Shown here piece by piece: positions 12 to 39,196 of a stretch of 42,214 nucleotides of DNA (position 1 is the stretch's first letter; each line of letters starts with the position of its first letter). The position numbers and the translations under genes were made by a program. Where the stretch lies: the IMG/VR virus record IMGVR_UViG_3300025647_000079, positions 1 to 42,214 of that record; one strand, 5' to 3'. Under the pieces are notes generated by a model. That model made no database searches. It saw only the letters and a list, made by a program, of their open reading frames with translations, and was not told the origin of the DNA. This DNA comes from a virus.

Positions 12-2417
12 TCACGCATCTTTCTGAAGCTCCTTTACCACCCAATCTTCAGTAGCATGCCACGGTCTGGGTGTACCGTGGAAGCAGATCACCTGAGTGT
101 TCTTCGGTCTGGTTCCGTTGCAGTCGTTCTTGAAGCTTGCCACTCTCAGTATGTCTTGAATCACTTGTGGCTTGTGATAGTCCTTCTCCAAGCTGTCAGC
201 GATGAACACCTGATCCCACTGCTTTGTAGACGGAGGGAGTTGGGACGCCAATCGTTTGTAGATCTTGCTGTAGTCTCCCTGCCAAGCCATGATCCCGCTG
301 GCCTTGCGTTCCGGATGCTTGAAACCATGCAACATCGCAAACTTCAACGGAGAGGTGGTCAACTCATCCACCGTGTCGACGAGGATGGTATCCAAATCGA
401 AATAGATTGCCCGTACATCATTTTTGCACAGCCCTACATCTCGTCGGAATAATTCAATCTTACTCCACCAGCCTCTCCAATCCTTACGCTCTAAAGGCAC
501 GACTACATCGCAACCCAATTTCTCTGCCGTATAAGACGAGTCTGTAAGGCAGCGAATCTCTACGTTCTCCATCAGCCTGCGAACGTTGTTGTGAAAGCGT
601 ATAGCGTGGGACTCGTTGAAGTCCCCACCTGACCTGAGAACAGTAGCCACTATGATCTGCTTCGCAACGTCCCTTCCTGTAGGGCCGCTCTTCCTGCGAG
701 GCTTGCCCTTGATGTCCTTGTAATGACGAACTAAGGAAGGATTGTTTTTCTTGATCTGCTTCTGCAGCTTTGGATCCACCTTTGAAAATGGATCTTCCTT
801 GCGCTTGGGTGCCCGAGTGTGGACATTCCAATACAGTCCTGTCCGCTTGTCATCCTCCAGTGGGATTCTGATTGACTCTAACCGGTCCAGAATCTCTTCT
901 GGCGAGGTAGTGGCTGTGTCTACCATCTGATACCAGTTGAAGAGAGCCTGCGGAGGGACAGCGTTGTGCCAGAAGCCAGTATGGAAGTACTGGTTCCACA
1001 ACATTAGGGTTGGAACCTTGAACACGGTGGACACTATCGTGATGCCGCTTGGGAATCCCACAACTCCGGCGGCACCACGAAGCAGTCCAAAACATTGATC
1101 TAAGTCGGTCTTGCCGGTGAGGTCTACATAGATGTCTTCCTTATCCAGCTTCTTCAGCTGATCGTTGACACCTTCCTTGTCCCACTTGGCTCCGATCAGC
1201 AGCATCTTACAGCCACGCTTCTTGCACAGTAGGACGTTGGTCTTGTGAATCTGCTCAACTGGGAACTCTTCCAGCCAGTGGCTGTACATACCTGCGTTGA
1301 CAAAGTATCCGACAAGATAAGAGCCGTACTTCTTCTGCAGCTTCTGTTGATACTCCTGCTCCTTCTTGTTGATGAAGATTCTCGGGAACCACTCAGCTGG
1401 ATACTGTGGATCAACCGCGTCGATACTCTTACCGAATCGCATGATCCCATTGTACGCAAAGAAGTAGTCACACTCAGCTACGTCTTCAAACACCGTCCGG
1501 CCATCTGCAACGTAAGCCTCCTGAAACTCTGGAGACTTGGTGCTGTGCTTCTTGTAGCCGGCAGCGTAGGCGATAGGGATACGGTTGAGAAAGGCGTGAC
1601 AGCGGTCTCTTCCGTTGTTGGGAGAGGAGATGTAGACGTGTGGGTTGACTATCCCTTTCTCTTTGAGGAAGCCGGGAAGCTTCACCATGCTCCAGTACGC
1701 ATCACCGATTCCGGGAGGGACTAGGATCGAGACTGGCTCTGCCTTCTTAATAGTAAAGCTCAACAGCATCTTGCCCTTGATTGGAAAGTATCGTTTGTGT
1801 AGCTTAAATCCCGAGATGTGCTCGATGTACCGGATAGCGTCTTCCTCCATGGGGAACCACAGGTGTTCAGGCTTACGGTGTTTGTGTCCTGCCTGATTCC
1901 ACACATTTGGGATCTCAACGTAGATCAAGCCACCGTCGACTACGATCCGTTCACACTCTTTCAACAGAGCAGTGATGTCCGGGCAGTGTTCTACCACGTC
2001 GTGCAACGTGATCACGTCAAATGATTGAGTCGGGAAGCCTATCTCATCCAGATAGCCGTTGTAGATGTACTTGTTGTTGACAGCGGTACTGGGCTCTGCC
2101 CCCCAAGCATCTATCCCAAGCTTCCTAGCCTCGTGAACAAAAGCACCTATACCAGCACCGACATCAAGCACTCTCGTGCCAGACTTAAAGTTGTAGTGCT
2201 TCAATCTCTTCTTGGCAGTCTCCTTGTCCTGCTTCATAGTGTGAGTGTACTGCTCCTGAATGTAGGAGTCTTTGTACAGAGTCTCTAGCTCTCTGACCGA
2301 AGGTGCTCCGTGTTGATAGGTGATCTTGCAAAAGTTGCAGATAGAAACAGGGAAAGGCCACGACACGTTCGTAGTCTCTGTTCTCTGATTGGATCCACAT
2401 GACGGACATGAAATCAT
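12..2417 (-). CDS. Multidomain SAM methyltransferase / glycosyltransferase
   Basis: About 801 aa from the ATG at 2417, chosen over an upstream in-frame start because GGAGGAAGTGCT precedes it and it forms an ATGA overlap with the previous gene. An N-terminal zinc ribbon (CPSC near residue 4, CNFC near 27) leads into a class I SAM methyltransferase with the glycine-rich motif VLDVGAGIGAF near residue 83. A middle section (about 230-560) contains PPGIGDAYW and GVVGFPSGITI and resembles heptosyltransferase-like GT-B enzymes. The C-terminal 200 residues contain YFDLDTIL, a DxD metal and nucleotide-sugar motif of GT-A enzymes. By family it would methylate and transfer sugars. Downstream of the capsid gene it may build a glycan on the virion or host surface; that role is inference. 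Methyltransferase confidence is high, sugar specificity unknown. Confidence 0.75.
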   Translation of the reverse strand: MISCPSCGSNQRTETTNVSWPFPVSICNFCKITYQHGAPSVRELETLYKDSYIQEQYTHTMKQDKETAKKRLKHYNFKSGTRVLDVGAGIGAFVHEARKLGIDAWGAEPSTAVNNKYIYNGYLDEIGFPTQSFDVITLHDVVEHCPDITALLKECERIVVDGGLIYVEIPNVWNQAGHKHRKPEHLWFPMEEDAIRYIEHISGFKLHKRYFPIKGKMLLSFTIKKAEPVSILVPPGIGDAYWSMVKLPGFLKEKGIVNPHVYISSPNNGRDRCHAFLNRIPIAYAAGYKKHSTKSPEFQEAYVADGRTVFEDVAECDYFFAYNGIMRFGKSIDAVDPQYPAEWFPRIFINKKEQEYQQKLQKKYGSYLVGYFVNAGMYSHWLEEFPVEQIHKTNVLLCKKRGCKMLLIGAKWDKEGVNDQLKKLDKEDIYVDLTGKTDLDQCFGLLRGAAGVVGFPSGITIVSTVFKVPTLMLWNQYFHTGFWHNAVPPQALFNWYQMVDTATTSPEEILDRLESIRIPLEDDKRTGLYWNVHTRAPKRKEDPFSKVDPKLQKQIKKNNPSLVRHYKDIKGKPRRKSGPTGRDVAKQIIVATVLRSGGDFNESHAIRFHNNVRRLMENVEIRCLTDSSYTAEKLGCDVVVPLERKDWRGWWSKIELFRRDVGLCKNDVRAIYFDLDTILVDTVDELTTSPLKFAMLHGFKHPERKASGIMAWQGDYSKIYKRLASQLPPSTKQWDQVFIADSLEKDYHKPQVIQDILRVASFKNDCNGTRPKNTQVICFHGTPRPWHATEDWVVKELQKDA

Positions 2418-3184
2418 AGCACTTCCTCCAAACTGACAAACGGGAAGCACTTGATGGCGCTGCCCTCTGTGGCGTTGAGGATCTCTGCTTCAGGGAAGAC
2501 TGTTTTGACTTGAACACTTATCCTCTCAAACATGGGGAGGAAGATGTTCTGTAAACGATCTGGCTTCGGATAGTTCTTATAATTAGGGTGCCAGTTGGCA
2601 ACAAGCCCTTTCGCCTTGTTGTATTGATAACGCTGCACGCGGTTCATCGGCTTGGCGTTCTGTGTCCCGAGTCGGACCCGCTTACGTCGTTCATCTTCTG
2701 ACGCCTTGGGGTCTTCTTTGCAGGTCATATCAAAACCCACCAGCACTACCTTTGCGGCACCCATCCTCAGTGCTAGGTTCACTGCACTGGCTCCGGTATT
2801 GCGGAACCAACCGATCCGAGCACCTTGATTCTGAAGAGAGTTTCCTATACGACGAAGCTGCTTCACCTGATCGTCCAGTACAAGCTTCTTTGAACAGGTC
2901 ACTATCTCTCCCTTAAACTCTTTCAGCAACACCTCACGATGAACACGACCGTCATCTCTATGAGTGCTGTGATACCAGTCGTAGTCTCCGAAGTAGCAAA
3001 GATCCACCCAATCGCCCAGCATGTAAGCGTCATTACACCCTAGTACACGAAAGTCTCTCGCCGGTTTCCCTAACACTGCATCTAAATCTAGCTGTGCTAC
3101 AGAAGGGCCACCGCCAATGATAACGACCGTGCGGTCTTTCCAAATGGCTGGCACTTTCCAATGTGAGCGATCAGGTGACATCAT
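2414..3184 (-). CDS. DUF115 / MptE-like phage protein
   Basis: 256 aa. Near residue 20 a Rossmann-like loop VVIIGGGPSVAQLDLD is followed by GCNDAYM and later by WFRNTGASAVNLALRMGA and VVLVGFDMT. This pattern fits the DUF115 / 6-hydroxymethylpterin pyrophosphokinase MptE-like family, which often sits beside glycosylation genes in bacteria and phages. Its end overlaps the methyltransferase-glycosyltransferase gene by four bases (ATGA), so the two are probably translationally coupled and work in one pathway. The start could be either of two adjacent ATGs (3184 or 3181), and the ribosome binding site is weak. The enzymatic activity cannot be told from sequence. A sugar-transfer or nucleotide-binding role in virion decoration is inferred from context. 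Confidence 0.6.
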   Translation of the reverse strand: MMSPDRSHWKVPAIWKDRTVVIIGGGPSVAQLDLDAVLGKPARDFRVLGCNDAYMLGDWVDLCYFGDYDWYHSTHRDDGRVHREVLLKEFKGEIVTCSKKLVLDDQVKQLRRIGNSLQNQGARIGWFRNTGASAVNLALRMGAAKVVLVGFDMTCKEDPKASEDERRKRVRLGTQNAKPMNRVQRYQYNKAKGLVANWHPNYKNYPKPDRLQNIFLPMFERISVQVKTVFPEAEILNATEGSAIKCFPFVSLEEVL

Positions 3185-27179: not shown

Positions 27180-27878
27180 ATGATCACAAATTGTATTGCA
27201 ATAGATTTTGACGGAGTGTTAAGGAAAAGTAATCGCTATGACAAAACCTCTTTTGGAGAGCCAAGTGATGGAGCTTCAAATGCAACAAAGAAGATCAAAG
27301 ATTTGGGATATGATATTATAATTCACACTTGTAGAGGCGAACACGAACACGACGAGATAGCAGAGTGGTGTGAGGAGAACGATATAAAGTTTGATTATAT
27401 CAACCACAGTCCTATCAACAGGACACTAAAGCTTGCAAAAAACAAGCCGAACGCTGACTATTATATCGATGACAAAGCAATAAGATTTGAAGGTGATTGG
27501 GAAAGTGTTCTTTGCCAAATAGATAAAAGTTTTGAAATTGTAGAACTTGATGATCTTGAAAAGATTTTCGAGACTGGTGATGCTATAAGAAAACAGCGTA
27601 CAGCGCAATATGGCAACTTTCAAGAAGGCAACAGGAACCAAGGTCTTTTGTGGACAGCTATGATCCAAAATTATTTCGGAATCAGATTACCACACTCAAT
27701 TCCGGCTGATTTAGTTTCTATGATGATGGCAGGCATGAAGGCTATGAGAGCTGTCTCAAAAGGTGTACCGTTCCACGGAGACAATTATGTTGACATGATA
27801 AACTATACAAAGATGGCAGCTGAGTCTAGAGTTCTTTTAGAGAAAGAAATTGCTGAGGACGTAGATGCCGAGAAATAA
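27180..27878 (+). CDS. HAD-like phosphatase fused to DUF6378
   Basis: 232 aa. Residues 1-115 are a small HAD-type domain: CIAIDFDGVL (nucleophile Asp at 9), IIIHTCRGEHEH as motif II, and YYIDDKAI as the acidic motif IV. Residues about 140-225 (RKQRTAQYGNFQ, MMMAGMKAMRAVSKG, HGDNYVDMINYTKMAAES) match the phage DUF6378 domain often seen near nucleotide enzymes. The fusion suggests a nucleotide or sugar-phosphate phosphatase. It overlaps the polymerase gene by 14 bases and has AAGGAAAGGAAAAG upstream. Confidence 0.75.
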   Translation: MITNCIAIDFDGVLRKSNRYDKTSFGEPSDGASNATKKIKDLGYDIIIHTCRGEHEHDEIAEWCEENDIKFDYINHSPINRTLKLAKNKPNADYYIDDKAIRFEGDWESVLCQIDKSFEIVELDDLEKIFETGDAIRKQRTAQYGNFQEGNRNQGLLWTAMIQNYFGIRLPHSIPADLVSMMMAGMKAMRAVSKGVPFHGDNYVDMINYTKMAAESRVLLEKEIAEDVDAEK

Positions 27879-30800
27879 GAAAAAAAGTAAATCAAGTTTC
27901 GCTTCTGGCTTTTGCCATCTTCATGTTCATACTGAGTATAGCCTTCTTGATGGATTCGGAACAGCTAAGCAATACGCTGAGGTTGCAAAGGAACTAGGGT
28001 TCAACTGTTTGGCTTGCACCGATCACGGAAATGTAGATGGTGCTTTGAAGTTTCAGAATGCTTGTACAGAAGCTGGCATAGCTCCTATATTTGGCTGTGA
28101 GTTGTACGTCGTTGAAGATGCAGAGATTAAAGAGAAAGGTGAAAAAAGAAGACATCTCTGTGTCTTTGTAGAGTCTAAAAAAGGTTGGGTGAATCTGTTG
28201 AAGCTGCTTACTTTAGCCAACACAAAAGGATTCTACTACAGACCACGAGTTGATCCAAAAATGCTATTGGATAATTGCGAAGGTCTTATATTCACAACCG
28301 CTTGCGCTTCTTCTGTCATTGTAGACGAAAGCTGGGGTGTTGATCTGATAAAGAATCTTGTCGACAGAATAGGAAAGGACTCTGTCTTTGTTGAGCTGAT
28401 GCCACACGACTACGAAGACCAGATAACAGTAAATGACAAGTCTGTTGATTTAGCAGAGGAGCTTGGTCTTGGGATAATAATGACAAACGATTGTCACTAT
28501 CCTGAAAAAGAAGATGCTGTTGCTCAAGAGGTTCTTTTAGCCATTCAGAGGAAAGCTAAATGGAAAGACCCAGACAGATGGAGATTTGATGTTGAAGGTC
28601 TTTATCTAAAAACTGAAAACGAAATGGCTACAGCTTTTGAAAAGGGATACCCAATCGACCACGACCTGTTTCAAGAATGCATCGAAAACACAAGTGTTAT
28701 TGCAAATAGATGCATCTCTGGATTTCCGTGTCTTGAAAAACAAGAGGTCGTCCTCCCTAAGATCAAAGGCCATGGCAAAAAGACAGACACAGAGATAATG
28801 GAAGAGATTATAGAGTCTGGTTATGAAAATCTTATAGCTCCAAATTTACCGAAACAAGGACCGAATGAAAAAGTATTAACAGAGAAAGATTACCGAGAAA
28901 GAATCAAAGAAGAGTTTGGCTTGATCTGTGAACTTAATTTCCAGAAATATTTTCTTGTGGTTTGGGAGTTGATAAATTGGTGCAGATCAGAAAACATATT
29001 AACAGGACCAGGACGCGGATCGGTTGGTGGAAGTCTTGTTGCATATCTTATGGGTATAACAAAAGTTGACGCTCTTGAATACGGCTTGATCTTTTCTAGA
29101 TTTATTTCACCAGCTCGAATCGACCTCCCAGACATAGACATGGATTTCGAAGATCGAAAAAGACATCTTGTGAGAAAGCACCTTGAGGACACTTATGGGA
29201 AAGAGTGTGTAGCTGGCATATCAACTTTTAGCAAACTCAAAGGACGTGCTGCACTTAGAGATGTGGCAAGAGTTTTCGATGTTCCATTTTCAGACGTAGA
29301 CAAAGCTGCAAAAAGTATTGTTGTTCGTAGTGGTGGCGACTTCAGAGCAGACTATACAATTGCAGATGCATTTATAACTTTTGAAGATGGTATAGCATTC
29401 AAAGAGAAATATCCAGAGGTTGCTGATCTTGCCTGCAAATTAGAAGGACAGGTGAGAGGTACAGGACAGCATGCTGCTGGAATCTGTGTAGACTCTAAAG
29501 ACTTACGAGAAGGAACAAAGTGTGTACTCTGTAAAAGAGGTGACAACATCGTAACAAATTGGGACAAGTATGATTCAGAGTTTTTTGGTATGATGAAACT
29601 TGACGTGCTTGGTCTTTCCGCTTTGTCTGTTCTGTCTAAAGCAAGAGACGCAATTGAAGAGAACCATGGCAAGAGAATCGAATATGAGGACCTTGGTTTT
29701 AACGATGAAGCGGTGTTCAAAGAAATATCAGCAGGTCATACTGTTGGCGCTTTTCAAATTGGATCTCCTGGCCTTTCAAAGTTTTGCGGAGAATTAGGAG
29801 TTGATGATTTTGATGACTTGGTTAATGCAACTTCTCTGTGGCGACCAGGAACTCTTAGATCAGGGATGACAACAGAATTTCAAAAGCGAAAGAAAAACGA
29901 ATCCGAATGGGATTATGTTCACCCAGCACTTGAGCCGATAACAAGAAACACCTATGGCATCATTTTGTATCAAGAGCAGGTTATGTTGCTCATGTATAAT
30001 CTTGCCGGCGTTGGTTGGAGAACTTGTGATGTGATCAGAAAGGTTATCAGCAAGAGCCAAGGAGATGCTCTGATTGAGCAATTCAAAGGTGAATTCATAA
30101 AAGGCTGTAAAGAGAAAGATACACTTGGAGAGAAAGAAGCGGGAAAGGTTTGGGACGAGCTTTCATCATTTGGCTCTTATGGCTTTAATCGATCTCACGC
30201 TGTTGAATATTCTATGATCACATATTGGGACATGTGGCTTAAGACTTATTACCCAGCTGAATTTCTTGCAGCCTCTTTAACTTATGGTGCGAAAGATAAA
30301 AAGTCTGAACTTGTCAGAGAAGCCAGACGCATAGGGCTGAAAATAAAACCTCCCAAGATAGACGTCTCTCACCCAACAGAGTGGGTTGGCAAAGACAACA
30401 TACTCGTAGCTCCTCTATCAGAGATCAAAGGGATTGGTGCTGCCGCTTGCAAAAAAATACAAAAAGCGAAATCTAAGAATTCAGACAAGTCGTTTTTCAA
30501 ATCAGATGCTGAAGAATCACTTCCCTCTAACATAGTTTCTCTTTTGGACAGAATTCATGCATATGATTTAGATTACGAATTCTCCGACTCGGAAATCTCT
30601 GACATATCAGGATTATTCAGCTTTGACATCTCTTCTGATCCGATGAGAGAGATAAGAGGCATAGTTGAATTGATAAAACCTTACAGCGCTTCAATAGCTG
30701 AAATCAGTAGTGGCAAAGTTAAAGGCAAGAATCTTTCCGTGTGTCGAATTGATGATCTTAGATTTGGATATCGAAAGAGCGTCATGAAGAACTTAAGAAA

Positions 30801-31644
30801 GAAGGGTAGTGAAAATATTGACATGGCTGGTACCAAAGAAAATTTGGGTGGTGTATACGGCTTTTGTCGAGACGAGTTTAGCACCGACATGCTGGTGTTC
30901 AATGATTCTGTTTATCAGAAAAAGAAAAATAAAGTTGAACACTGCGCTGGTCAATGGTTCATAGCTGAATTAGAAAAGAGTCATACAAATGTTGTGTGCA
31001 GTGATTTATGGCTTACAGAAGATCTACTAAATTGTGACATAGAAGATCTTGGTCTAGAGCTTTTACCTCGTAAAAAACAGCCAGAAATAGACCTTGGTAA
31101 TCTTATTGACAAGTGCAAAGCTTGCGATTTGCGAAATAAAGCCTCCTGCAGCCCTGTAAAGCCGTCCTATGGGAGTCACCCAATACTTATACTAGGTGAA
31201 GCTCCTAACAGCTTAGAAGCTAAAGCAAACTCTTTTCTGTCGTCTACTTCAGCTGCCGTCCTTTGGGATCGACTTGACGACAGCGGCATCAAGCGGAAAA
31301 ACTGTTTTGTTGATAGCGTAGTGAAGTGTTGCGTAGACAAGACGAAGGACATAACCCAAAAGCATATCACTGGATGTTCAGATTGGGTTTATGGTTTAAT
31401 AGAGTCTGTAAGACCAGTTGTGGTTCTAGCACTTGGTAACATTTCTGTAAATGCAATAACCGGTGAAAAGTCGGGCATCAATACTCTCAATGGAACAACT
31501 CAGTGGATGCCAAGCCTAAAGTGCTGGGTGTGCTGGTGTGTGAGTCCATATAGTGCTTCTTATTCAACTGAGAACAAAGAGATGTTCTTCAAAGGAGTCG
31601 ACAACTTTACAAACACAATAGAAAGATTAGGAGGACTGGTTTGA
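27865..31644 (+). CDS. dnaE: DNA polymerase III alpha subunit (DnaE) fused to a uracil-DNA-glycosylase-like domain
   Basis: 1259 aa. The PHP domain is near the N-terminus (CHLHVHTEYSLLDG, TDHGNVDG, GCELYVV). The polymerase palm holds PDIDMDFED (catalytic Asp near residues 422-426), then HTVGAFQIGS, YQEQVMLLM and FGSYGFNRSHAVEYS. After a shortened C-terminal part, residues about 1075-1250 are homologous to family 4/5 uracil-DNA glycosylases: CKACDLRNKAS, ILILGEAPNSLEA, DSVVKCC, TGCSDWV, VVVLALGN. All four iron-sulfur cysteines appear present. The usual catalytic HPS motif is replaced by SPYS, so this domain may bind uracil or DNA rather than excise. The polymerase replicates the phage genome; no separate proofreading exonuclease is seen. 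Confidence 0.9.
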   Translation: MPRNKKKSKSSFASGFCHLHVHTEYSLLDGFGTAKQYAEVAKELGFNCLACTDHGNVDGALKFQNACTEAGIAPIFGCELYVVEDAEIKEKGEKRRHLCVFVESKKGWVNLLKLLTLANTKGFYYRPRVDPKMLLDNCEGLIFTTACASSVIVDESWGVDLIKNLVDRIGKDSVFVELMPHDYEDQITVNDKSVDLAEELGLGIIMTNDCHYPEKEDAVAQEVLLAIQRKAKWKDPDRWRFDVEGLYLKTENEMATAFEKGYPIDHDLFQECIENTSVIANRCISGFPCLEKQEVVLPKIKGHGKKTDTEIMEEIIESGYENLIAPNLPKQGPNEKVLTEKDYRERIKEEFGLICELNFQKYFLVVWELINWCRSENILTGPGRGSVGGSLVAYLMGITKVDALEYGLIFSRFISPARIDLPDIDMDFEDRKRHLVRKHLEDTYGKECVAGISTFSKLKGRAALRDVARVFDVPFSDVDKAAKSIVVRSGGDFRADYTIADAFITFEDGIAFKEKYPEVADLACKLEGQVRGTGQHAAGICVDSKDLREGTKCVLCKRGDNIVTNWDKYDSEFFGMMKLDVLGLSALSVLSKARDAIEENHGKRIEYEDLGFNDEAVFKEISAGHTVGAFQIGSPGLSKFCGELGVDDFDDLVNATSLWRPGTLRSGMTTEFQKRKKNESEWDYVHPALEPITRNTYGIILYQEQVMLLMYNLAGVGWRTCDVIRKVISKSQGDALIEQFKGEFIKGCKEKDTLGEKEAGKVWDELSSFGSYGFNRSHAVEYSMITYWDMWLKTYYPAEFLAASLTYGAKDKKSELVREARRIGLKIKPPKIDVSHPTEWVGKDNILVAPLSEIKGIGAAACKKIQKAKSKNSDKSFFKSDAEESLPSNIVSLLDRIHAYDLDYEFSDSEISDISGLFSFDISSDPMREIRGIVELIKPYSASIAEISSGKVKGKNLSVCRIDDLRFGYRKSVMKNLRKKGSENIDMAGTKENLGGVYGFCRDEFSTDMLVFNDSVYQKKKNKVEHCAGQWFIAELEKSHTNVVCSDLWLTEDLLNCDIEDLGLELLPRKKQPEIDLGNLIDKCKACDLRNKASCSPVKPSYGSHPILILGEAPNSLEAKANSFLSSTSAAVLWDRLDDSGIKRKNCFVDSVVKCCVDKTKDITQKHITGCSDWVYGLIESVRPVVVLALGNISVNAITGEKSGINTLNGTTQWMPSLKCWVCWCVSPYSASYSTENKEMFFKGVDNFTNTIERLGGLV

Positions 31645-36984: not shown

Positions 36985-37251
36985 ATGAAGACAAGAACGA
37001 TAACACTAAATGGAACTAGATTCACACTTGGCAAGAAAGAGTACACCGATACAATCACAGGATTTACAGGGATCGCTATTGCTGGGATCTCATATCTGAC
37101 AGGGTGTGATCAGCTTCAGCTAACAAGCACAGACACAACTGGCAGGCCTTGCGAGGTTTGGGTTGATGTGACTCGTATTGAAGAGGTGAAAGTAAAACCT
37201 CGCAATGGTGGTCCCGCGCCGATGATTCCTTCGCGTCACCCACAACAATAA
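36985..37251 (+). CDS. Conserved small phage protein of unknown function
   Basis: 88 aa from the ATG at 36985 (AAAGAGGAGAACG upstream). It matches a widespread phage small-protein pattern: DTITGFTGIAIAGISYLTGC, then LQLTSTDTTGRPCEVWVDVT. The fold is beta-rich. The family has no established role that I know of. Confidence 0.62.
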   Translation: MKTRTITLNGTRFTLGKKEYTDTITGFTGIAIAGISYLTGCDQLQLTSTDTTGRPCEVWVDVTRIEEVKVKPRNGGPAPMIPSRHPQQ

Positions 37252-37286
37252 CACTCTGTTTTAGCGACAAACAAAGGAAGCGAGAG

Positions 37287-37505
37287 ATGGCAAGCAAACC
37301 CCGAAACTTGAAAAAGACCGACAAGCTGATCGTTGTGTCTGGAGGCTCAGTGGTGGACACATATGACGGCGATGAGTGGAACAAAGCGATTGAAGATGCT
37401 GAAGCCGCATGCGAAGACAACGAGGGCGAGGAGACATACATAGCCAACATACTGGGCGAAATTATTCTCGTTCCAACATCGTGTGATTTCATCCCAACAA
37501 CATAA
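37287..37505 (+). CDS. Hypothetical acidic protein
   Basis: 72 aa with AAAGGAAGCGAGAG upstream. Acidic; strand-like LIVVSGGSVVDTY then a helical segment. No family recognised. Confidence 0.5.
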   Translation: MASKPRNLKKTDKLIVVSGGSVVDTYDGDEWNKAIEDAEAACEDNEGEETYIANILGEIILVPTSCDFIPTT

Positions 37506-37520
37506 GTAAAGGAGAAATAA

Positions 37521-37796
37521 ATGAACAGCAGAAGAGCACGCTATTTGAAGTTCTTTACAAAACAAGCCATTTACTATTCAGGAGCGGGAGAGGCGATGTC
37601 CGATTTCCACAAGCGCCGGTTGTACAAGCAGGTTAAGAAGTGGTGGACGAAGCTGCCTCGCAACTTGAAGGACAAAGCAGTTCGAGATCCAGATCCGTTC
37701 CTTGGAAACATAACCGATCGTCTACGAAGAGAGGCCATCGACAAGGGTCTGATAAAGCCCGACGCCAAAGAAAAACTAATGATGGAATCTAGCTGA
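37521..37796 (+). CDS. Hypothetical basic protein
   Basis: 91 aa with AAAGGAGAAATAA upstream. Basic and helical, starting MNSRRARYLKFFTKQ; WWTKLPRNLKDKAVRDPDPF in the middle. No family recognised. It is the last gene before the tmRNA-like locus. Confidence 0.5.
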   Translation: MNSRRARYLKFFTKQAIYYSGAGEAMSDFHKRRLYKQVKKWWTKLPRNLKDKAVRDPDPFLGNITDRLRREAIDKGLIKPDAKEKLMMESS

Positions 37797-37812: not shown

Positions 37813-37819
37813 GTATAAT
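37813..37819 (+). promoter_or_regulatory. -10-like element before the tmRNA-like RNA
   Basis: ACCGTATAATATATT; the -10 TATAAT (37814-37819) ends 11 bases before the first acceptor-stem base at 37831, the spacing expected for a stable RNA gene with a very short leader. No good -35 is visible. Confidence 0.55.
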
Positions 37820-37830
37820 ATATTAGAAGA

Positions 37831-38265
37831 GGGCGTGATCTGGCGAGGTTGTGGTTCGTCGCTGGCGGTATTGCAGCAAGACTATAGGAGGGAACTAATG
37901 GTAGAACTTGACACTTACTATGCGACGGATCGAAGGGTGTATTGGGGTGCGCTTTCCAGTGATATGCAACGCGAACTGGATCACACCAGCGCACTGCTTG
38001 CTAAGCTCACAGAGCTGGCACCAGACGCATTCTGCACCTACTTCCCACGGGAAGGCAAGTGGGATGTCAGCCGCAAGTCGAACTACAGGAGCATCATCCC
38101 GTCCCTAATCTCTGGAAAGCAGGAAGCAATCATAACCGCAATCGAAATACTGGAACAGCAGCAAGAGAAAGTAAAAAAGTGATCGAACAGCTTACGGAAC
38201 TAAGCATGTAGAAGGTTGAGTGATCTTGATTTCGGACGCGGGTTCAATTCCCGCCACGTCCACCA
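37831..38265 (+). ncRNA. tmRNA-like RNA (ssrA-type acceptor domain) enclosing an ORF
   Basis: The 3' end is a clear tmRNA tRNA-like domain: T stem GCGGG/CCCGC (38238-38242 with 38250-38254) around loop TTCAATT, acceptor strand CACGTCC (38255-38261), then encoded ACCA. Positions 38230-38255 match E. coli ssrA at 25 of 26 bases and 38199-38211 at 13 of 13 (from memory). The only matching 5' acceptor strand is GGGCGTG at 37831-37837. It pairs at all seven positions and places G-U at pair 3, the alanyl-tRNA synthetase identity element. It differs from E. coli at pairs 4 and 5 in a compensated way. It is followed by ATCTGG, like the tmRNA start. However, no P2 helix, tag peptide or pseudoknots are recognisable, and a 94-aa ORF with its own ribosome binding site fills the middle. 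The 3' part is firm; that the whole is one processed RNA is inference. Confidence 0.6.
37898..38182 (+). CDS. Hypothetical protein encoded inside the tmRNA-like RNA
   Basis: 94 aa from the ATG at 37898, with a strong ATAGGAGGGAACTA site. MVELDTYYATDRRVYWGALS, then a helical segment (QRELDHTSALLAKLTELAPD), and a C-terminal helix. Codon use resembles neighbouring genes, so it is probably translated. It starts 61 bases after the putative 5' acceptor strand and ends before the tmRNA 3' domain. No family recognised. Confidence 0.6.
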   Translation: MVELDTYYATDRRVYWGALSSDMQRELDHTSALLAKLTELAPDAFCTYFPREGKWDVSRKSNYRSIIPSLISGKQEAIITAIEILEQQQEKVKK

Positions 38266-38290
38266 TCTTGAAACAGCAGGAGATGAAAGA

Positions 38291-39196
38291 GTGATTAAGC
38301 AACTGGACATCAAAGACTACCAAGCCCATGCGGACAGCCACCTGGAGTTTGATCCAGGAATAAACATAATTGTTGGCTCCTCAGACAACGGGAAGAGTGC
38401 TGTCCTTCGCGCCATGCTATGGAACCTCACCAACAAGCCAGACGGGACTAGCTTTATCCGACACGGTCAGAAAGGAGCCTGTGTCTCTGTCAAGCTTGAC
38501 GATGGGACTGTAGTAGAAAGAGAGCGGAAAGGAGCTACAGTCAACGAATACCGGATGGATGGGGAGGTATTCAAAAAGCTAGGCAGAGGATCTGTTCCAG
38601 AGGAGATCCAGCAGGCTCTGAATCTGTCTCCAGATATCAACATACAGGGACAGTTAGACTCTCCCTTTTTGTTGTCACAAACTCCTCCTGAGATCGCAAG
38701 AGTTCTAAACAAGGTGGCTCATCTGGAAGAGATGACCGAGTCTCTATCAAACGCCAGCAAAACCATCAGAGAAGTCCACAGGGACATCTCCTCTTCAGAA
38801 GCTGAAAAGGAACGGATTGAAGAGCAGTTGGAGTCCCTGCAGTGGGTATCTAAAGCGCAAGAGGATCTCAATGCCATTATAGCCGAGGACGATAAGGCGG
38901 CTGAGATAGAAAACCAATTGTGTGACATTCGTAGAGCTTTAGACAGCCTTCTAAAGACAGACAAGCAGATCAAGTCCAGCGAAAAGCTGATGAAGTTGGA
39001 CAAGCAGATCTCCAAACTGGATGAAGCTCTGAAGCAACACGATGAGCTGGACAGAAGACTGGATACTATTGATCGTCTTCTTACGACAATTGAAGAGACA
39101 GACACAAAGATGAAAAACTGCCAAGCCTCTTTGAAGCAGGTAGAAAAGCAGTTGAAGGAGTTTGATGTCTGTCCATACTGCGGAGGGACGCTGTGA
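38291..39196 (+). CDS. SbcC/Rad50-like N-terminal half ending at the zinc hook
   Basis: 301 aa from a GTG at 38291, eight bases after AGGAG; in-frame codons further upstream lie within the tmRNA-like element. Residues 1-45 give the ABC-type N-lobe (QLDIKDYQAHADSHLEF, then NIIVGSSDNGKSAVL with Walker A GSSDNGKS at 29-36). A Q-loop-like region follows, then a long coiled coil. The protein ends DVCPYCGGTL, the Rad50 zinc-hook CxxC, followed immediately by the stop codon. The matching C-terminal half is a separate gene at 40364. With SbcD it should form a DNA-end and hairpin-processing nuclease. Confidence 0.82.
   Translation: MIKQLDIKDYQAHADSHLEFDPGINIIVGSSDNGKSAVLRAMLWNLTNKPDGTSFIRHGQKGACVSVKLDDGTVVERERKGATVNEYRMDGEVFKKLGRGSVPEEIQQALNLSPDINIQGQLDSPFLLSQTPPEIARVLNKVAHLEEMTESLSNASKTIREVHRDISSSEAEKERIEEQLESLQWVSKAQEDLNAIIAEDDKAAEIENQLCDIRRALDSLLKTDKQIKSSEKLMKLDKQISKLDEALKQHDELDRRLDTIDRLLTTIEETDTKMKNCQASLKQVEKQLKEFDVCPYCGGTL

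Follow-up and report, generated by a model that had tools for sequence, protein, structure and literature searches.

A viral locus in which tmRNA ends flank a protein gene, probably a tmRNA gene broken by replacement of its interior

Introduction

tmRNA is the RNA that frees stuck ribosomes. In the viral sequence analyzed here (a stretch of 42,214 nt, hereafter the window), an element at 37831-38265 begins and ends like a tmRNA and carries a protein-coding ORF in between. An initial annotation of the locus read it as a possible new kind of RNA, an mRNA with tRNA-like termini. We asked which parts of the element derive from a tmRNA, where they came from, and whether the whole is better explained as a functional molecule or as the remains of a disrupted gene. 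The features on which the argument rests are as follows.

37814-37819, + strand: -10 element, perfect TATAAT, ending 11 nt before the acceptor strand (direct reading)
37831-37837, + strand: 5′ acceptor strand GGGCGTG, fully complementary to 38255-38261; start of the ARAGORN call
37838-37843, + strand: ATCTGG, start of the D-loop segment; recognizable tmRNA sequence stops here, with TTCGAC absent (compared with the 5′ ends of 55 viral tmRNAs)
37886-37891, + strand: Shine-Dalgarno AGGAGG, 6 nt before the ATG (direct reading)
37898-38182, + strand: gene for a 94-aa protein, occupying the position of the tmRNA interior (codon usage, weak similarity)
38199-38233, + strand: P2 3′ strand with the conserved ACTAAGCATGTAG at 38199-38211; its 5′ partner is absent (RF00023 alignment)
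38238-38254, + strand: T stem-loop GCGGG-TTCAATT-CCCGC (RF00023 match)
38255-38265, + strand: 3′ acceptor strand CACGTCC (38255-38261), discriminator A and encoded CCA (38262-38265) (RF00023 match)
38266-38295, + strand: possible second copy of the ORF C-terminus, ATC TTG AAA CAG CAG GAG ATG AAA GAG TGA (ILKQQEMKE*) (direct repeat)

Results

The 3′ end is a tmRNA domain

A covariance search of the window, one of the checks that the initial annotation had proposed, matched the 3′ part of the element to the tmRNA family RF00023 with 38 bits (E 7.7e-12), below the gathering score of 47; an Rfam scan of the window at the gathering threshold returned no match. The alignment is convincing from ACTAAGCATGTAG (38199) to the CCA (38265), and its 5′ part is forced onto ORF sequence. 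The T arm, the 3′ acceptor strand and the encoded CCA, which the initial annotation had placed at 38230-38265, all fall within this match. Its start at 38230 was too short: the similarity also takes in ACTAAGCATGTAG and the P2 3′ strand, giving about twice the listed length. Judged by this alignment, the 3′ domain certainly derives from a tmRNA.

A short 5′ end with the expected partner strand

ARAGORN, run blind on the window, made a single gene call, a tmRNA with the exact limits 37831-38265. The acceptor stem that this call implies forms 7/7 pairs and includes the alanine identity element G3-U70, as in a tmRNA; pairs 4 and 5 have the opposite orientation to those of the E. coli stem and remain paired. 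The ATCTGG that follows GGGCGTG agrees with the tmRNA consensus GGGGguGAucuGG. No good -35 element was found upstream of the TATAAT at 37814-37819. The features that had been picked out by eye at this end, namely the 7-base acceptor strand with a G-U third pair, the compensated pairs 4 and 5, the -10 element ending 11 bases upstream and the ATCTGG, are thus all present.

To gauge chance agreement, the 3′ end was held fixed and the 890 nt upstream were shuffled 1000 times with dinucleotides kept. An acceptor-compatible strand alone arose in 19% of the shuffles; 0.2% combined such a strand with CTGG, and 1.1% gave a tmRNA call of any kind by ARAGORN. The acceptor and CTGG combination occurs a single time in the window. 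Among viral tmRNAs, G3-U70 was present in 54/54 distinct ends with a D-loop, collected with a pattern that required pairing and tolerated an A at position 3 and a T at position 4, and these ends comprised 11 acceptor stem types, all compensated. In the intact cases that end in CACGTCC, the partner strand was GGGCGTG in 18/18, and the same partner was also seen by position in viral loci, without the pairing pattern. These comparisons suggest that the 5′ end is very probably real, though short (13 nt).

Folding adds little to this. The acceptor closes with a probability of 0.98 in the isolated 435-nt RNA, a value that 57% of shuffled interiors equal or exceed. Closure drops to 0.10 with short flanks, and real tmRNAs show an equally wide spread, so the measure is uninformative. 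The folding energy of the whole RNA is no better than that of shuffles (z 0.04).

The interior of the tmRNA is missing

Intact viral tmRNAs have GG-N-TTCGAC, or a close variant, within a few bases of the acceptor strand. No such D-loop lies on the correct strand anywhere in the window, and CTGG in the element is followed by CGAGGTTGTGG. We considered TTCGTCG at 37855, 11 nt past CTGG, as a displaced D-loop and did not accept it (p 0.06). The viral comparison set of distinct loci with full flanks comprised 39 one-piece and 16 permuted tmRNAs and five loci that did not match the D-loop pattern; four of these five have a variant D-loop (L014, L016, L021, L262), and the fifth (L168) is a leftover 3′ fragment adjoining a complete ssrA.

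The 3′ strand of P2 likewise has no complementary 5′ partner in the window. A P2 helix hidden inside the ORF was rejected, as no complementary strand was present there and the duplex with the 5′ region was like that of shuffles (p 0.30). A tag frame with a proteolysis signal is also lacking, with no ALAA-stop motif in the window; the tag reported by ARAGORN, DGSKGVLGCAFQ, is spurious, since it is read from within the ORF in a different frame and lacks an Ala-Ala end. The earlier reading that neither a tag nor P2 lies between the ends is therefore borne out. Of approximately 59 distinct viral loci that contain a tmRNA with full flanks, none had matching tmRNA ends around a foreign interior; among the loci seen, only the window element and its sister strain have this anatomy.

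The ORF between the ends

The 94-aa ORF with its own Shine-Dalgarno site, already noted in the initial annotation, lies in the only forward frame with a positive codon-usage score, the others being negative, and on this evidence the ORF at 37898-38182 is coding. The N-terminus of its product shows weak similarity (E 0.06, 43% over 37 aa) to a protein, also 94 aa long, from Stenotrophomonas phage Bhz59. A Pfam search of the protein gave no domain match, homologs in IMG/VR were confined to the same strain, and the structure model was poor (pLDDT 65) with no significant structural match.

The tmRNA piece resembles phage tmRNAs

The last 35 nt of the element matched no bacterial ssrA in 84,980 genomes. 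With the last 26 nt, the same genomes again yielded no bacterial ssrA, and the single match was an archaeal tRNA-Ala. In viruses, a 31-nt end is common to 29 contigs, and Xanthomonas phage XacN1 shares a 35-nt stretch of the 3′ end at 97%, within a permuted tmRNA. These matches point to a phage tmRNA as the likely source of the piece, which is evidence against an attP site. An attP copied from a host ssrA, which the initial annotation had named as one finding that would overturn its reading, was thus sought in two genome scans (35 nt and 26 nt) and no bacterial source was found. A permuted or split tmRNA within the window was also rejected: the 500 nt downstream contain no 5′ acceptor strand, no second coding piece is present, and the 3′-half-first order of RF04321 is not seen. 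When an intact ancestor was sought with the 5′ end GGGCGTGATCTGGNTTCGA, the only viral match was a chance one in an unrelated coding region.

Several observations were made along the way. The archaeal tRNA-Ala (Sigynarchaeota MAG, L242 6905-6979) is identical over those 26 nt to the phage tmRNA end and also has the acceptor GGGCGTG/CACGTCC. The XacN1 tmRNA (L002, AP018399.1 about 37201-37621) is a permuted two-piece gene with the tag ANANTFDYALAA and is missing from the record annotation. Permuted tmRNAs occur in many IMG/VR contigs (L283, L262, L259, L252, L254 and others) with diverse acceptor stems. Two viral tmRNA 3′ ends (L261, L009) have a P2 strand somewhat like that of the window (GGTAGTTGAGTATTTTCGG) and are possible relatives of the ancestor.

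Genome context and a possible junction scar

Proteins encoded in the 42 kb virus record include a DnaE-type polymerase, a RecA-like recombinase, an SbcC-like pair in split form, a metallophosphoesterase and a 5′-3′ exonuclease; those of its proteins that were scanned included no integrase. Syntenic relatives (exonuclease 26-46% identity) keep the exonuclease, phosphoesterase and ATPase genes and have neither an ARAGORN tmRNA nor a recognizable copy of the 94-aa ORF, suggesting that the element is a lineage-specific acquisition. Only one further strain has been sampled; it is 99.8% identical across 12.4 kb and has the same arrangement with the element unchanged. As about one change is expected in 435 nt at this identity, the unchanged element says nothing about selection.

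The 30 nt at 38266-38295 lie directly 3′ of the CCA and overlap the GTG start of the next gene, the exonuclease, much as the end of the 94-aa ORF (ILEQQQEKVKK stop) overlaps GTG ATC GAA CAG CTT. The direct repeat 38151-38171/38269-38289 is 76% identical, with an alignment p of 0.0085 against shuffles and comparable scores elsewhere in the genome. The duplicated junction of ORF end and gene start around the 3′ piece looks like a recombination scar, which as a reading of the repeat is suggestive only. A direct repeat at the ORF start (37774-37787/37893-37906) was too short to use. The two weak direct repeats, one at the end of the ORF and one at its start, have near-equal spacings (118 and 119) and bracket both tmRNA pieces.

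Elsewhere in the window, the DnaE-type DNA polymerase (27865-31644, + strand) is unusually fused at its C-terminus to a uracil-DNA glycosylase domain (PF03167, residues 1106-1241). The product of the gene at 27180-27878 (+ strand) combines an N-terminal match to phosphoheptose isomerase with a C-terminal match to phosphofructokinase-type families (PHROGs), and the gene at 12-2450 (- strand) encodes an 812-aa protein that is methyltransferase-like in its N-terminal part and glycosyltransferase-like in its C-terminal part. The independent contig with 99.8% identity (L028, position 1) ends at the same base as the window (42213), possibly a genome end or a shared assembly break.

Discussion

A broken tmRNA gene as the probable origin

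We favor, as the probable explanation, a phage tmRNA gene that was broken when a protein gene replaced its interior, leaving relic ends. The ancestor would have been a standard one-piece tmRNA gene borne by a phage, with the acceptor stem GGGCGTG/CACGTCC; a donor or ancestor is available, since intact tmRNAs with this stem are common in phages. Illegitimate recombination may then have exchanged all that lay from the end of the first 13 nt (acceptor strand and CTGG) up to the P2 3′ strand for a segment carrying the gene of a 94-aa phage protein. This gene would now be transcribed from the old tmRNA promoter (TATAAT, 37814-37819) and translated normally, and the RNA would no longer perform trans-translation, although RNase P and 3′ nucleases may incidentally go on trimming its ends. 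Some features sit uneasily with disruption. The acceptor strands and T arm are perfect, with neither end showing the decay that a pure relic might have; the space between the ends is neatly filled by the ORF, and a promoter lies where a tmRNA start needs one; and the search of viral sequences with the 5′ end did not find a close intact ancestor.

The D-loop TTCGAC and P2 matter for the tRNA-like fold and for SmpB binding, and with both gone a normal tRNA-like fold is doubtful. That the element is nonetheless a functional hybrid, an mRNA for the 94-aa protein whose tRNA-like ends are cut by RNase P, trimmed to CCA and alanylated so that it is stable or can be addressed to ribosomes, seems to us quite unlikely. 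It would account for the encoded CCA, the seven perfect pairs of the acceptor stem, G3-U70 among them, the high closure probability of the isolated RNA, the perfect -10 element just upstream and the in-frame coding ORF; against this, shuffled interiors close the acceptor equally well, closure is mostly lost with short flanks, and the element is unique among the viral tmRNA loci seen. RNase P processing and alanylation require the acceptor and T arm, both intact here, and as a predicted function they are doubtful; the full proposal of a phage mRNA with tmRNA-derived termini, an RNase P 5′ end, an alanine-charged CCA and a translated 94-aa gene inside is rather improbable. The functional RNA of the initial annotation gains no positive support, with the D-loop gone, the P2 3′ strand unpaired and a fold like that of shuffles, and a disrupted tmRNA gene covers the same facts with fewer assumptions.

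It is also unlikely that only the 3′ fragment (38199-38265) is tmRNA-derived and that the upstream GGGCGTGATCTGG is a coincidence. The frequency of acceptor strands in shuffled upstream sequence, the mere 13 nt of the 5′ match without TTCGAC, and the chance occurrence of the same 13-mer in unrelated coding sequence speak for coincidence, but the acceptor strand with CTGG is rare in shuffles and has no second site in the window, the perfect TATAAT is well placed, and GGGCGTG is exactly the variant seen in CACGTCC tmRNAs. Either an attP site copied from the 3′ end of a host ssrA or a split tmRNA, represented here by its acceptor piece and with its coding piece off the contig, is very improbable: the 3′ ends of ssrA are common integration sites (L168 has a whole ssrA and a second 3′ fragment), two-piece tmRNAs are common in phages (PMC9004378) and the contig may be incomplete, but the genome scans gave no bacterial ssrA, no integrase was found among the scanned proteins, and the 500 nt downstream hold no 5′ strand. 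A decoy, in which the RNA would bind SmpB or AlaRS through its tRNA-like domain and block host trans-translation while also encoding a protein, is the most improbable proposal. Phage DS6A, whose tmRNA has little beyond the tRNA-like domain, offers a precedent, with inhibition of host tmRNA reported for such a molecule (PMC4131195, PMC11915505), but the DS6A form is compact, and here the D-loop is absent and the halves lie 350 nt apart.

As a relic, the element illustrates the decay of phage tmRNAs, and it shows that an automatic caller such as ARAGORN accepts such chimeras, false tag included. Should it prove functional, the element would represent an mRNA that carries tRNA-like ends.

Comparison with known tmRNA systems

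A 2025 tmRNA database paper lists standard, intron-containing, permuted and tag-less gene forms, the last including that of phage DS6A (PMC11915505), and one survey put the share of phage genomes with a tmRNA at 2.3% (PMC9004378). A tmRNA with a protein gene in place of its interior is absent from the described forms (PMC11915505, PMC4131195, PMC9004378). The closest precedent, set beside the window element by description only, is the tmRNA of Mycobacterium phage DS6A, which consists of the tRNA-like domain. Together with plastid tmRNAs that lack a coding sequence, it shares with our element a tRNA-like part without a tag (PMC4131195, PMC11915505); these forms are compact (about 65 bp in plastids), whereas the halves in the window flank an ORF and lack the D-loop. 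Group I intron tmRNA genes can also hold a protein-coding insert, some of them LAGLIDADG endonucleases (PMC11915505). Their introns interrupt the T-loop and splice out, whereas the T-loop here is intact, internal tmRNA sequence is lost, and no Rfam intron family matched the window. Fragments of ssrA left by integrating elements likewise retain a 3′ part, but the window has a matching 5′ end as well, and no bacterial source matches it. The XacN1 tmRNA has the same acceptor, CACGTCC/GGGCGTG, and the near-identical 35 nt, and differs in its permuted order, its D-loop TTCGACGG and its tag. One-piece phage tmRNAs with the same stem (for example L005, L012, L013, L033) are similar in overall length (about 360-440 nt) and share the acceptor stem GGGCGTG/CACGTCC with G3-U70, (N)NCTGG, the T arm and the encoded CCA; between these ends they carry GGATTCGAT, P2 and mostly an Ala-Ala tag, whereas the window element carries a 94-aa ORF with its own Shine-Dalgarno site.
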